Shown piece after piece: positions 18,728 to 24,026 of a DNA stretch of 52,133 nt (positions are counted from its first letter, which is position 1; each line of letters starts with the position of its first letter). Where the stretch lies: the NCBI GenBank assembly GCA_030695565.1, contig JAUYRZ010000004.1, forward strand, positions 1 through 52,133. Direction: 5' to 3'. Below the pieces are notes generated by a model, which searched no databases, was not told the DNA's origin, and saw only the letters and a list, made by a program, of their open reading frames with translations. Both the position numbers and the translations under genes were made by a program. This DNA is from Archangium sp. (GTDB lineage Bacteria; Myxococcota; Myxococcia; Myxococcales; Myxococcaceae).

Positions 18728-19290
18728 GAGGTCACCTGGTCGATGAGCTGTCGCAACAGGCGCAAGCCGCCCGCTGAGCTTTTCTCGGGGTGAAACTGCA
18801 CGCCGATGGTGCGCGCCCTCGTGACGATCGCCGCCACCTCGGCCCCTTCGTGACGCGCCCAGGCTTGCACCACTCCGGGGTCGCGCGGCCGGCACGCGAA
18901 GCTGTGCGCGAAGTACATGTCGCCCACGCCGTCCACCTTCGTCCAGCCCATGTGGGGCACCCGCCGCGCCACCAGCCGGGTGACGTCTCCTTCGATGAGA
19001 CCCAGCCCTTCGCCTTCTCCTTCTTCACTGCGCTCGAACAACAGCTGCATGCCCAGGCAGATGCCCAGGCACGGCTGCCCGTCGAGCAGCGCGCTCTTCA
19101 AGGCCTCTCGGCCCGGGGCCAGCCGGGTGGCGGCTGCTCCAAACGCGCCCACGCCGGGCAGCACCACCAGCGAACTCCCGGCGAGCTTTCGTGCGTCGGG
19201 CTCGACGACGCTGTCGATGCCAGAGACGGCCAGCGCACGGCGAAGCGAGTGCAGGTTGCCTGCGCCCGTATCGAAGAGCGTGGCCCTCAT
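18724..19290 (-). CDS. hisH: Imidazole glycerol phosphate synthase glutaminase subunit HisH
   Basis: A class I glutamine amidotransferase of 188 residues that feeds ammonia to HisF. The catalytic triad is complete: Cys78 in CLGICLGMQLLF, and His167 and Glu169 in VQFHPEKS. The oxyanion strand LPGVGAFGAA lies at 44-53. The start at 19290 follows the hisDC stop by an ATGA overlap. hisH is separated from hisF by hisA and hisB, so complex partners are not adjacent but are co-transcribed. Confidence 0.97.
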   Translation of the reverse strand: MRATLFDTGAGNLHSLRRALAVSGIDSVVEPDARKLAGSSLVVLPGVGAFGAAATRLAPGREALKSALLDGQPCLGICLGMQLLFERSEEGEGEGLGLIEGDVTRLVARRVPHMGWTKVDGVGDMYFAHSFACRPRDPGVVQAWARHEGAEVAAIVTRARTIGVQFHPEKSSAGGLRLLRQLIDQVTS

Positions 19291-21635
19291 GAGAGCGCCT
19301 CGAGGCACGCCGCCATCGAAGCCCACGGACCCAGCGTGATGCGCAGCGCCTCACCGATGCCCTCGAGCTTCGAGAAGGCCCTCACCGAGACACCGCGGGT
19401 GCGCAGCTCGTCCGCCAGCTTCGTTGCGTCTTGCTTCACGGGCACCAACACGAAGTTGGCTTCGCTCGGGAGCGCGAGCAGGCCCTTTGCGCGCAGCGCC
19501 TGCGTGAAGCGTGTTCGCACCTCGAGCGTCTCATCGACGCACTGCCTGACCCACGCGCGATCCGTGGTCAGCGCCGCGATGGCGACCCGCTCGGCGACCG
19601 TGCCGACTTTGTAGGGACCGCGCGCCTTCTCCAGCTCGGCGGCCAACCGGGGCTGGCTCACCGCCCACCCCACGCGCAGCCCCGCGAGGCCGAACGCCTT
19701 GGACATCGTTCTGATGACGAGCAGCCGCTCAGCGCTCGCGGCCAGGCCAACCCGGCTCGGTGCGCGCGCGTAGTCGATGTACGCCTCGTCGAGCACCACC
19801 AGGGCCTCTGTCTGTTCGAGCAGCGAGTCGAGAAATCCGTCAGGCAGCAGCGCTCCGGTCGGATTGTTCGGAGCACAGAGGTAGATGAGCCGGGGCCTGG
19901 CTGCGAGCAGCGCCTCCACGTTCAACGCGGTGGCGACGGGCACGACGCCGTTGGTGCTCGCGAAGGTGGGCACGATGCCGAACGTGGGCGGGCAATAGGC
20001 GAGCACGTCGCCGGGCGCTGCAAAGGCGCGCATCGTCGCGTCGAGCAGGTCATCTGAGCCGCACCCGGTGACGATGGCCTCGAGGGGAACACCGGCTTCT
20101 TTCGCCAGGGTCGCGCGCAGCTCGTCGGCGTACGGCGTGGGGTACCGCGTCACCGTCGCCTCGCGCAGCACCCGTGCCGCCGAGGGCGGAGCGCCGAACA
20201 GGTTGGTGTTGTCGGTGAGGTCGATGACGCAGGGTGGCCGCGTGGGCACATAGCGGGCGACGGCGGCGAGCGTCGGCCTGAGGGGGAAGGGTGAAGGCGT
20301 GACCGCGCCGCTTCGCTCTTCCGTTGCAGAGGCCCCGCGCTCGCCGCGCTTCCACTGCGCTGCGGCCGCAGCGTGGGCAGACAGCCCCTCGCTGAGCGCG
20401 AGCGCCTCGACGTCTTCCGAGAGCCGCGCGGCTGCGTCGGGCGTCACCTGCTGCCAGGTCTGCCATCGCACGAAGTCGAGCACCGAGAGGCCGCTGAAGC
20501 GCCGCGCCGCACCCGCGGTCGGGAGCACGTGGTTGGCCCCCGTGAGGTAGTCACCGAAAGCCACCGACGACGAGGCGCCCAGAAAGACGGTGCCTGCGTT
20601 GCGGACCTTCGGCAGGGCACGGCGCGGTTCCCGGAGCGAGAGCAGCAGGTGCTCGGCTGCGAAGTCCTCGACGAAAGACCACGCCTCGTCAGGGTGGTTC
20701 ATCGACAGCACCGCACCCCGAGCGCGCAGCGCCTGCGAGATGATCTCGCGCCGCGGCAGCGTCTCGACCTCGCGGTCCAGCACGGCCAGCACCTCGTTGG
20801 CCAACGTGTCGCCCTGCACGAGCGCGACGACACACGCGTCGGCGTCGTGCTCCGCCTGTGCGAGCAGCTCGCGCGCGATGAGGGTCGCGTTTGCGCCGTC
20901 ATCGGCCACCACCAGAATCTCGGAGGGCCCCGCGGGCGCATCGATGCCCACGTCGCCCGCAACCTGGCGCTTGGCTTCGGCGACCCAGGCGTTCCCCGGC
21001 CCCACGATGCGATCGACGCGCGGGACGGACGTCGTTCCATAGGCCATGGCGGCGATCGCGCCTGCGCCTCCGAGGGCAAAGACCCGGTGGGCACCGGCCA
21101 ACGCGGCCGCGGCGAGCACGACATCGGAGGGCAGGCCGGTGGGTCCCGGGGGAGAGCACACGATGACCTCGGCGACGCCCGCAGCGCGCGCCGGCACCAC
21201 GCCCATCAACACGCTCGAGGGGTAAGCGGCCTGGCCACCGGGCGCGTACACGCCGACCCGCGCGAAGGGATCAGCGCGACGGCCCACCACCACACCGGGT
21301 TCCACTTCGACCTCGCTGGGGCCCGGCAGCGTCGCCCGCGCCACGCGCTCGAGGTTCTTCACTGCGCGCTCGAGCCCGCGCCGCACCGTGGGGTCGAGCG
21401 TCGCGAGTGCCCGTGCCAGCTCCGCGCGCGGGACCTCGAGGGCCTCGAGCTTCACGGCATCGAAGGTGCGGGCGAAGCGGAGGAGCGCTGCGTCTCCCTC
21501 GGCGCGCACCTCGGCCACCAACGCCCGCACCTTCATCGAGAGGCCTTCATCGACGCTGAAGCTGCGCTCGAGCAAGGCGCGCTTCGTTTCGGTTGGCAGC
21601 GCCGCGAGCGTGCCCGTGAATCGCACGAGGCTCAT
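19287..21635 (-). CDS. hisD/hisC: HisD-HisC fusion: histidinol dehydrogenase + histidinol-phosphate aminotransferase
   Basis: A protein of 782 residues. Residues 1-~430 are histidinol dehydrogenase with all active-site positions: Q260 and H263 (zinc), general base pair E328-H329 in FAAEHLLLS, D362 in FGDYLTGANHVLPT and H421 in EGLSAHA. A ~22-residue Ser/Pro/Ala linker (431-452) leads to residues 453-782, a complete fold-type I aminotransferase: DNTNLFG, CAPNNPTG (588-595), DEAYIDY and PLP lysine K646 in TMSKAFGLAGLRVG. One chain thus covers step 7 and the last two oxidations. There is no frameshift or internal stop; the frame is continuous through the linker. Its ATG overlaps the hisG stop by 4 nt. 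Confidence 0.95.
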   Translation of the reverse strand: MSLVRFTGTLAALPTETKRALLERSFSVDEGLSMKVRALVAEVRAEGDAALLRFARTFDAVKLEALEVPRAELARALATLDPTVRRGLERAVKNLERVARATLPGPSEVEVEPGVVVGRRADPFARVGVYAPGGQAAYPSSVLMGVVPARAAGVAEVIVCSPPGPTGLPSDVVLAAAALAGAHRVFALGGAGAIAAMAYGTTSVPRVDRIVGPGNAWVAEAKRQVAGDVGIDAPAGPSEILVVADDGANATLIARELLAQAEHDADACVVALVQGDTLANEVLAVLDREVETLPRREIISQALRARGAVLSMNHPDEAWSFVEDFAAEHLLLSLREPRRALPKVRNAGTVFLGASSSVAFGDYLTGANHVLPTAGAARRFSGLSVLDFVRWQTWQQVTPDAAARLSEDVEALALSEGLSAHAAAAAQWKRGERGASATEERSGAVTPSPFPLRPTLAAVARYVPTRPPCVIDLTDNTNLFGAPPSAARVLREATVTRYPTPYADELRATLAKEAGVPLEAIVTGCGSDDLLDATMRAFAAPGDVLAYCPPTFGIVPTFASTNGVVPVATALNVEALLAARPRLIYLCAPNNPTGALLPDGFLDSLLEQTEALVVLDEAYIDYARAPSRVGLAASAERLLVIRTMSKAFGLAGLRVGWAVSQPRLAAELEKARGPYKVGTVAERVAIAALTTDRAWVRQCVDETLEVRTRFTQALRAKGLLALPSEANFVLVPVKQDATKLADELRTRGVSVRAFSKLEGIGEALRITLGPWASMAACLEALS

Positions 21636-22480
21636 GGTACGAGCCTCTCGATGCGCGTCACCAGGATGCCCTCGCAGCCCAGACCCTGGAGCCGGGCCAC
21701 CGTGCGGAACACCGCGTCGGCCGGCACCACCGCGTGCATGGCGACGAAGCGGCCACCGCCCATCAACTCCGAGAGCGTGGGGCCATTGAGCCCGGGCAGG
21801 CACTCGCGCACGGCGGCCAACCCTTCCCGCGGCACGTTCGCCATCAGGTAGCGCTGACCGCGCGCCCGCAGCACCGATGAGAGGGCGAGGGTGAGGTCTT
21901 TGGTTTCGGTGCGGTTGGCCGCGTCTTCGCGCGCGACCAGGCGGGCCGAAGACTCGAGCACCGTTTCGACCTCCCGAAGACCGTTCACCTGGAGCGTGGA
22001 GCCCGTGCTGGTGAGGTCGACCACCACGTCAGCGATGCCGAGGTGCGGGGCGATCTCAGCGGCGCCCGAGACCGGCACCACTTGAACCGCGAAGCCCCGC
22101 AGCTCGAAGAACCGCCGGGTGATGCCGGGAAAGCAGGTGGCGACGCGGGTGCCCGGAGCGACCTGGGCGAGCTGCGTGAGGCCCGACTCCTCCGTCGCGG
22201 CGACCACCAACCGGCAGCGGCCGAACTCGAGATCCAGCAACTGCGTCAGCGAGCGGTTGGTCTCGGTGACGAGATCCCACCCGGTGATGCCCACGTCGGC
22301 GGCGCCGTCGGCCACGAACTCAGGAATGTCCTGGGCGCGAACGAAGAGCGCCTCGTAGTCGCCGATGCGGGCGCGCAGCGATCGTTCGCTCCGGCCCCGA
22401 ATGGGAAGCCCTGCGTCGTCGAACAACTGCTTCACGTCTTCTGACAATCGGCCCTTGTTGGGCAACGCGACACGCAACAT
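21632..22480 (-). CDS. hisG: ATP phosphoribosyltransferase HisG, long form
   Basis: A protein of 282 residues starting the pathway (ATP + PRPP). It starts MLRVALPNKGRLSED, then the periplasmic-binding-like core with DVGITGWD and the PRPP loop VVVDLTSTGSTL near residue 150. Length and the C-terminal ~75-residue ACT-like domain identify the hexameric long form, which is feedback-inhibited by histidine and does not need HisZ. The ATG at 22480 has an AAAGGAG ribosome-binding site 8 nt upstream. It is the first structural gene after the attenuator, so it is regulated at both transcript and enzyme level. Confidence 0.97.
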   Translation of the reverse strand: MLRVALPNKGRLSEDVKQLFDDAGLPIRGRSERSLRARIGDYEALFVRAQDIPEFVADGAADVGITGWDLVTETNRSLTQLLDLEFGRCRLVVAATEESGLTQLAQVAPGTRVATCFPGITRRFFELRGFAVQVVPVSGAAEIAPHLGIADVVVDLTSTGSTLQVNGLREVETVLESSARLVAREDAANRTETKDLTLALSSVLRARGQRYLMANVPREGLAAVRECLPGLNGPTLSELMGGGRFVAMHAVVPADAVFRTVARLQGLGCEGILVTRIERLVP

Positions 22481-22728: not shown

Positions 22729-23364
22729 ATGAAGAAACAACTGGTGGGGTTGTTGGGGGCGCTGTCGCTGGTCTCCTGCGGGACGACGAGCTGTGTCGCT
22801 CGCGGAACGCTGGTGTGGACTCCGCGCGGCAAGCGCCCGATCGAAGACCTGATCGAGCAGGACACCGTGTGGTGCGTGGAGCCCTCGACGGGTGAGCGCG
22901 TGGCCTCGCCGATCACCGCCGTCGCCCGCGCGACCCGAGAGGTGATGCGGCTGGGCGGCGATGACTTCTCGCTCACCTGTACGACTGACCACCCGCTCTA
23001 CGATCCGCTCGAGAAGGTGTGGGCGGCCGCAGGTGACTGGGTGCTGGGGCAGCGCTCTTCGCTGCTGCTCGTGCCTGAAGACGGCACCCCGCCGAGGGTC
23101 GTGACCGTTTCGACGCGGGAGATCTCGGCCGGTGTGTCGGAGGTGATCGACCTCACCGTGCTGCACCCGCTGCACAACTTCGTCGCGGCGGGCGTGTTGG
23201 TTCACAACAAGAGCATCCGCATCAGCTGCGAGTTGCAGGATGGCGGGCGGTCTTTCGGCGGCGAGGGGTGCACGTGTCAGGACGGCGGCGCCGGCTTCGC
23301 GAGGTGCGAACCGAAAGACGAAGGAAGCGTCGCGCCCGGCGTTCTCGTCTGCACCTGCTCCTGA
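22729..23364 (+). CDS. Lipoprotein with intein-like Hint domain and Cys-rich C-terminal peptide
   Basis: A protein of 211 residues; ATG at 22729 after a GTTGAAGGG ribosome-binding site. Residues 1-17 are a lipoprotein signal ending SLVSC (lipid Cys17). Only GTTS separates it from Cys22, the first residue of a Hint/intein-like domain: block A CVARGTLVWTPRGKRPIEDL, block B TTDHPLY with the conserved T85-x-x-H88, and the C-terminal blocks VIDLTVLHPLHNFVAAGVLVHN ending in His159-Asn160. No homing endonuclease is present. The residue after HN is Lys rather than Cys/Ser/Thr, so full splicing is unlikely, but cleavage at Cys22 and/or Asn160 is possible, as in bacterial intein-like domains. Residues 161-211 hold six Cys. 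It is divergent from the his operon. Confidence 0.88.
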   Translation: MKKQLVGLLGALSLVSCGTTSCVARGTLVWTPRGKRPIEDLIEQDTVWCVEPSTGERVASPITAVARATREVMRLGGDDFSLTCTTDHPLYDPLEKVWAAAGDWVLGQRSSLLLVPEDGTPPRVVTVSTREISAGVSEVIDLTVLHPLHNFVAAGVLVHNKSIRISCELQDGGRSFGGEGCTCQDGGAGFARCEPKDEGSVAPGVLVCTCS

Positions 23365-23543: not shown

Positions 23544-24026
23544 TTACTTCTTCTTCGCGACCGGCTTCTTGGCGACTGCCTTCTTCTTCGCGACCGGCTT
23601 CTTGACGACTGCCTTCTTCTTCGCGACCGGCTTCTTCTTCGCCGCCGACTTTGCGGCCGCTTTCGTCGCCTCGACCGCCAACTCGCTGCGAACGACGTCC
23701 ATGTCGAGCGCACCGATGCCCGCGACGACCTCCTCGAGTTCCTTCGCTGACATCGCGCCTTCTTCACGCGCGACCACCACACCGTCGCGAATGATGATCA
23801 CGGTCGGGGTGCCCTCGATGTCGAAGTCGTCCGCGAGCCCTTCCTGCGCATCGATGTCGACCTTCCCGAACATGACGTTCTTCTGCTTCTTCGCGACGGC
23901 CTCGAAGACCGGCGCGAACTCCGCGCAGAATTCACAATCCTTCGCCCAGAAGAAGATGAAGAGCGTGCCGCCCTTCTGCACCGTCGTGTCGAGGTTCTCG
24001 TCATTCAGAGTTTGCGTTGCAGCCAT
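23544..24026 (-). CDS. Thioredoxin-fold protein with Lys/Ala/Pro-rich tail
   Basis: A protein of 160 residues. Residues 1-~108 are a thioredoxin domain: FFWAKDCEFCAEFAPVF carries the redox pair Cys31-x-x-Cys34 (CEFC, not the usual CGPC), and GTPTVIII supplies the cis-Pro loop. No signal peptide, so it is cytoplasmic. Residues ~120-160 are a basic tail of repeated KKPVAKKKAV units, like the C-termini of histone H1-like proteins, and are probably disordered and nucleic-acid-binding. The ATG at 24026 follows ACGAGGAACACC. The combination suggests a thiol-disulfide function targeted to DNA, RNA or other polyanions; that is inference. Confidence 0.88.
   Translation of the reverse strand: MAATQTLNDENLDTTVQKGGTLFIFFWAKDCEFCAEFAPVFEAVAKKQKNVMFGKVDIDAQEGLADDFDIEGTPTVIIIRDGVVVAREEGAMSAKELEEVVAGIGALDMDVVRSELAVEATKAAAKSAAKKKPVAKKKAVVKKPVAKKKAVAKKPVAKKK
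23547..23645. repeat. 33-bp tandem repeat encoding the basic tail
   Basis: About two and a half to three copies of a 33-bp unit (cttcttcttcgcgaccggct and 13 more bases) encode the 11-residue KKPVAKKKAV-type units of the thioredoxin tail. Copies differ by one or two bases, so the tail probably grows and shrinks by slippage. It is coding sequence, not a CRISPR array. Confidence 0.8.

Follow-up and report, generated by a model that had tools for sequence, protein, structure and literature searches.

Locus and gene neighbourhood

The window analysed here, the whole 52,133-nucleotide stretch of Archangium sp. contig JAUYRZ010000004.1, carries a gene for a small predicted lipoprotein whose main module is an intein-like Hint domain. 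This gene, its parts and two neighbouring genes are the following.

19287-21800, minus strand: HisD-HisC fusion in one frame (Histidinol_dh at residues 84-480, Aminotran_1_2 at residues 525-829)
22729-23364, plus strand: open reading frame of the Hint lipoprotein, 211 aa in translation
22729..22776, plus strand: signal peptide, residues 1-16 (MKKQLVGLLGALSLVS), seen in the translation as an n-region with KK and a hydrophobic core, alike in 18 homologues
22777..22779, plus strand: predicted lipidated Cys17 of the lipobox LVSC, preceded by A/S/G in 18/18 copies
22780..22791, plus strand: spacer GTTS, separating Hint Cys1 from the lipid Cys; relatives have 0-6 residues here
22792..23208, plus strand: Hint (intein-like) domain, residues 22-160, from sub-threshold Pfam/NCBIfam matches, the family profile against the PDB, the structural model and its fold
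22792..22794, plus strand: Cys22, block A Cys1, the putative thioester-forming residue, invariant; in the structural superposition it falls on the first residue of the Mtu RecA intein
22981..22992, plus strand: block B T85-T-D-H88, with T85, D87 and H88 invariant
23149..23151, plus strand: block F Asp141, aligned with the Asp that the Mtu RecA intein (2in0) has in this block, invariant in alignment A1
23173..23175, plus strand: block F His149 (HNF), invariant
23203..23208, plus strand: block G His159-Asn160, invariant in 16/16 lipoprotein members
23209..23211, plus strand: Lys161, the +1 residue, in 16/16 intact members and 17/18 counting fragments
23209..23361, plus strand: C-terminal 51-residue six-Cys module (putative cargo peptide) with conserved spacing C..CxC..C..C
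23544-24026, minus strand: protein with a thioredoxin domain and a Lys-Ala-Pro tail (KKPVAKKKAVVKK) that resembles histone H1/HC2

In translation, the product consists of MKKQLVGLLGALSLVSC, GTTS, the domain running from C22 to VHN160, and K followed by 50 residues; the cysteines of this tail are C167, C181, C183, C193, C208 and C210. The initial annotation had read the frame in exactly this way (Cys17, GTTS, Cys22, TxxH, HN, Lys161 and six cysteines in the last 51 residues). As in bacterial lipoproteins, the signal peptide ends in a lipobox with its cysteine, and A/S/G-Cys occurs at this point throughout the 18 copies of the family, the -3 lipobox residue being atypical in L011 and L017. Lgt and Lsp genes, whose products could lipidate such proteins, are present in the same genome, and lipidation of Cys17 is predicted from the sequence. 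The genome has four Lgt-family and three Lsp-family genes, above the usual single copy.

The thioredoxin-domain gene and the Hint gene are convergent, the former lying just downstream of the latter. No partner or immunity gene is conserved next to the Hint gene across genera, the only shared neighbourhood being orthologous synteny within one genus (g5), which is expected of a protein that acts on itself. The long-form HisG of the window had no match at E<=1e-20 in five genomes of the same genus (G001-G005) in a search run without a positive control, so that the his cluster may be of outside origin. When the same five genomes were compared for an empty site, the HisG anchor gave no match, and the MBL-fold anchor was found in G005 only, in other surroundings, so that the comparison revealed no empty site.

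Family and distribution

The protein is not alone. A paralogue with 68% identity lies on another contig (C126) of its own genome, and about 15 further genes from five genera of Myxococcaceae, all of the named relatives being metagenome-assembled, share one layout: lipid Cys, 0-6 residues, Hint Cys1, a domain ending in VHN, Lys and a six-Cys tail. Several carrier genomes have more than one copy. Searches of the family, class and phylum gave no gene with the lipobox-Hint layout outside Myxococcaceae, and a search for viral relatives gave intein-type sequences in other proteins only. All 18 copies, which include partial and frameshifted ones, have a signal peptide with A/S/G-Cys at its end, then 0-6 variable residues and then Hint Cys1; in L004, L009 and L011 there is no spacer at all and the lipid Cys directly precedes Cys1. 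Recurrence in 18 gene copies means that the layout did not come together by chance. The earlier view of a lipoprotein anchor bearing the Hint domain as its main module is supported. The GTTS motif, which had been proposed as part of the signature to be sought in homologues, is not conserved; only the layout around it is. In one gene (L019/L022, G051:C456:6862-7493), the signal peptide with the N-terminal part of the Hint domain and the C-terminal part with the tail lie in different frames, reflecting either an assembly error or a broken gene.

Three relatives (L013, L020 and L021) lack the signal peptide, an intact HN-Lys end and the tail, and retain Cys1 and TxxH. According to the tree, the signal peptide was lost in at least two lineages. 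The anchor, the C-terminal machinery and the cargo thus go together. L013 and L020 are under purifying selection (dN/dS about 0.2), and the three proteins may have a cytoplasmic role that uses the N-terminal chemistry only.

Fold and catalytic residues of the Hint domain

Taken singly, the sequence matches Hint_2 (6e-4) and Intein_splicing (2e-3) below the curated cut-offs of Pfam and NCBIfam. Further sub-threshold matches, to intein_Nterm (2.6e-4, residues 22-91) and intein_Cterm (0.017, residues 141-160), have ends that coincide with residues 22 and 160, and in phmmer the same residues 22-160 align to the complete Mtu RecA mini-intein. The family profile matches inteins and a BIL domain in the PDB with E of about 1e-11 to 1e-13. 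The AlphaFold model built with the family alignment has a mean pLDDT of 88.7, with about 95-98 in the Hint core. Its best Foldseek match is Tetrahymena BIL2 (6y75/6tmm, E 2e-10), followed by inteins, and VIA-align gives Z of 20-21 against inteins and 18.8 against the Hedgehog Hint domain (1at0). Against the Mtu RecA mini-intein (2in0), Z is 20.0, with 2.0 Å over 132 residues; model residues 6-144 (residues 22-160 of the window protein, offset +16) span intein residues 1-440. From this superposition, Cys22 and Asn160 sit at the positions of intein Cys1 and the terminal Asn. Family profile and predicted structure together make the Hint assignment firm: the model has the Hint fold with its N- and C-terminal catalytic ends together, as in the rest of the superfamily, and bears out the earlier reading of a complete domain.

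Conservation tells a similar story. Across 15 aligned proteins (A1) with 42-68% identity to the window protein, C22, T85, D87, H88, D141, H149, H159, N160, K161 and C167 are invariant, and at both junctions the positions that are catalytic in inteins (C22, T85, H88, D141, H149, H159 and N160) do not vary in 15-16 proteins. The column of the lipid Cys in a second alignment (A2) was set by row start, and the conservation of this residue rests on A1 and the 18-copy survey. Between close relatives, the dN/dS of the Hint domain is about 0.17-0.22 by a simple counting method. A domain meant for C-terminal cleavage alone needs no N-terminal machinery; since this machinery is conserved, the step at Cys22 apparently matters. 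It might be supposed that the domain is a processing-dead stalk between the lipid and the Cys-rich tail, and the single-sequence scores under the curated cut-offs, together with the persistence of three relatives without an intact HN end, two of them under purifying selection, would agree with that. However, all catalytic residues, HN included, are invariant in the lipoprotein members, which is unexpected for a mere stalk and makes this explanation improbable.

All 19 Hint domains form one clade in the tree, with the RHS-type Hints outside (support 96/95), although branches are long and the placement of the outgroup is unsure.

Relation to known Hint systems

Type-A bacterial intein-like (BIL) domains, such as the C. 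thermocellum BIL (2lwy), are among the closest known systems. They have the same Hint fold, Cys1 and His-Asn end, lack Cys/Ser/Thr at +1 and reside in exported variable host proteins. The lipoprotein members likewise have Cys1, block B TxxH and the C-terminal His-Asn, and instead of Cys/Ser/Thr at +1 they have Lys (16/16 intact members). The scores of the family profile against 2lwy (1.2e-11) and the Mtu RecA intein (1.8e-11) are equal. Unlike type-A BILs, the domain here stands 0-6 residues behind a predicted lipid-anchored Cys, always has Lys at +1 and forms the main module in a small lipoprotein that stands alone. Judging by sequence, the family appears to work like a type-A BIL, the lipid-anchored N-extein and the invariant +1 Lys being outside the BIL description.

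BIL2 of Tetrahymena BUBL1 (6y75/6tmm), the best Foldseek match, has a thioester that reportedly ends up on the side chain of a Lys (PMC8616854), but it is eukaryotic, is flanked by ubiquitin-like domains, is not membrane-anchored as described and has a +1 residue other than Lys in the PDB sequence as aligned. The class 1 Mtu RecA mini-intein aligns over its full length, with Cys1, TxxH, the block-F Asp and His, and HN. In contrast to class 1 inteins, which use Cys/Ser/Thr at +1 for the branched intermediate, our family has Lys161, and there is neither a conserved housekeeping host protein nor an intein-free allele, the tail being never Hint-free in 60 genomes. The MXAN_6253 group (Myxococcus, Stigmatella and Photorhabdus) also consists of exported bacterial Hint proteins, myxobacterial ones included, yet its Hint domain stands at the C-terminus behind a long upstream stretch, good conservation is confined to motifs A and B, and neither the lipobox-Cys1 layout nor a cargo tail is part of its description (PMC2362128).

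The Hedgehog Hog domain (1at0) has the same fold and likewise joins Hint chemistry to a lipid. There, the lipid is gained at the C-terminus of the product, whereas here the N-terminal piece would carry it from the start, and the terminal Asn is retained; behind the Hint domain, in place of a sterol-recognition region, lies Lys with the six-Cys module. A Hedgehog-like lipidation of reversed polarity, in which an amine of another molecule attacks the Cys22 thioester, may be considered, given that in Hedgehog the corresponding thioester is attacked by an external nucleophile and that BIL2 is described as using Lys to attach its N-terminal partner to further substrates (PMC8616854). We regard such transfer in trans as very unlikely, as no sterol-recognition-like or acceptor domain and no conserved partner gene were seen, and the invariant HN and +1 Lys would be superfluous.

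HINT domains of RHS and other polymorphic toxins, too, have a variable C-terminal module behind the Hint domain, and the combination of a Hint domain with a fast-evolving C-terminal module is a polymorphic-toxin layout (with annotated relatives on plasmids). It could therefore be argued that the Hint domain releases a pretoxin and that the tail is a small toxin. However, toxin HINT proteins are large and multidomain, with a CFxAGT start, a mostly WVHN end and a variable +1 residue, and form a separate clade. Our protein has 211 aa, without a long N-terminal delivery protein, shares no neighbour across genera that could be an immunity gene, and has a tail without a Pfam match. A toxin precursor is hardly credible.

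The six-cysteine tail

The spacing of the tail cysteines (C..CxC..C..C) is conserved across the family. For the window protein, L002 and L004, the dN/dS of the tail is near or above 1, a rough value as the tails are short and gapped. Sequence comparison thus indicates that the tails evolve fast while retaining their cysteines. In L007 (G030:C237) and L009 (G051:C611), a single Hint domain is followed by four to five six-Cys modules, and L008 (G002:C560) carries an extra domain at its C-terminus that gives a weak PPC-like match. A profile of the tail searched against 60 genomes found copies only behind Hint domains, plus three weak chance-like matches; there being no Hint-free copy in these genomes, the notion of the tail as a separately occurring cargo was dropped. 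Two weak matches in the own genome (L056 and L057) were discarded, as neither place encodes a Cys-rich protein. The tail is modelled as low-confidence beta structure (pLDDT 73), and neither a PDB match to the model at E<=0.001 nor a Pfam match to the sequence was found.

The invariant lysine and the proposed reaction

The invariance of the +1 Lys is a feature that the initial annotation missed. Lys161 is constant in all intact members, whereas positions +2 to +6 vary, and the mean frequency of the top residue is 0.64 for the Hint domain against 0.34 for the tail without its cysteines. RHS-type Hints from this phylum have N/I/T/G/E/Q/Y at +1 and never Lys (0/14). A constant Lys161 in an otherwise varying tail points to a role of this residue in the reaction or its product, although with all 19 Hints in one clade the invariance is in part shared ancestry. 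An ankyrin-repeat protein of another Myxococcota family (L052, G139:C394:2831-3253) is large and has a Hint domain in mid-protein that ends in VHNKSP, also with Lys at +1. In M. xanthus, the +2 residue has been observed to influence inner-membrane retention (PMC3222651); Lys161 as such a signal, at +2 after splicing, would be applicable to the zero-spacer members only and was set aside.

From the +1 Lys, it had been concluded that cleavage rather than splicing is to be expected. This does not follow, as type-A BILs have no +1 nucleophile and can ligate: Cys1 forms a thioester, Asn cyclises and the freed amine attacks the thioester, with cleavage products dominating in the cases tested (PMC4031507). 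For Tetrahymena BIL2, splicing through an isopeptide to the epsilon-NH2 of Lys has been reported (PMC8616854). Taken together, these precedents make re-anchoring at least as likely as release, and the self-release from the membrane envisaged before becomes one of at least two possible outcomes.

We therefore favour, with a probability of roughly 0.42, a self-processing lipoprotein that would re-anchor its six-Cys peptide by transferring the lipopeptide to Lys161. After export, Cys17 would be lipidated by Lgt and Lsp, and the Hint domain would then fold at the membrane face. Cys22 would attack the preceding carbonyl (N-S acyl shift), holding the lipid-Cys-spacer as a thioester; Asn160 would cyclise with the assistance of His159 and free the N-terminus of Lys161. 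The lipopeptide could then move from Cys22 to an amine of Lys161. This may be the alpha amine, by aminolysis like that of type-A BILs, or the amine of the side chain, which would give an isopeptide such as that reported for BIL2. The products would be a small lipidated six-Cys peptide and a free Hint domain; in competition with this, the thioester could be hydrolysed, leading to release. The sequence, the layout, its conservation, the predicted fold and the placement of the catalytic residues are what the analysis shows; we infer lipidation, both cuts and ligation.

Several observations are in line with re-anchoring: the residues of both junctions are invariant at 42-68% identity under a low Hint dN/dS, Lys stands at +1 here and not in RHS-type Hints, the best Foldseek match is to BIL2, the Hint domain and tail always occur together, no neighbour gene is conserved across genera, and in relatives without a signal peptide the tail and the intact HN-Lys end are gone as well. 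The conserved N-terminal machinery and the invariant Lys161 argue that the Cys22 step and the +1 residue matter, short of proving ligation. Lysine is, however, protonated at neutral pH, which counts against re-anchoring. The same is true of the partly ancestral Lys, of the +1 residue of BIL2, which is not Lys as aligned, and of the anchor 0-6 residues from Cys1, which could hinder the active site. Lys161 could instead speed Asn cyclisation, mark a released peptide or form salt bridges. The variant in which the Hint domain passes the lipid-bearing N-terminal peptide to the side-chain amine of Lys161, giving a re-anchored, isopeptide-linked lipopeptide, we consider unlikely; we know of no natural Hint domain that uses the side chain of a +1 Lys.

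Cleavage without ligation is a serious, if tentative, alternative. Hydrolysis of the Cys22 thioester would detach the protein from its lipid and cyclisation of Asn160 would liberate the six-Cys peptide, making the Hint domain a release timer for a secreted peptide, which the fast-evolving Cys-rich tail resembles. The same invariant catalytic residues would serve, and characterised BILs yield mainly cleavage products (PMC4031507; PMC7664689), which also weighs against re-anchoring. On the other hand, cleavage without ligation leaves the invariant +1 Lys unexplained and makes the lipobox seem roundabout, since an ordinary signal peptide could export the peptide; in the zero-spacer members, a lipidated Cys alone would be left behind.

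Implications

BIL domains were described in 2003 by Amitai et al. (as referred to in PMC4031507). The initial annotation knew of no characterised case in which the main module directly on a lipoprotein anchor is a Hint domain, and our full-text literature search for BIL or Hint domains in lipoproteins or myxobacteria, which covered mainly papers available without subscription, likewise gave none. The nearest earlier description is of the different exported myxobacterial Hint group mentioned above (PMC2362128).

The family is compact, with a defined N-extein (the predicted lipid-anchored Cys and 0-6 residues), a defined C-extein (the six-Cys peptide) and an invariant +1 residue. To our knowledge, it is unclear why bacteria keep BIL domains; with such exteins, the native role of BIL chemistry becomes directly testable in one small gene. 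If Lys161 proved to act through an isopeptide, this would be natural protein splicing with lysine replacing the cysteine or serine nucleophile. If the outcome is ligation, the family would represent a self-catalysed shortening or remaking of a lipoprotein; if it is release, a self-timed exit from the membrane. Either outcome could serve as a tool for making lipopeptides.
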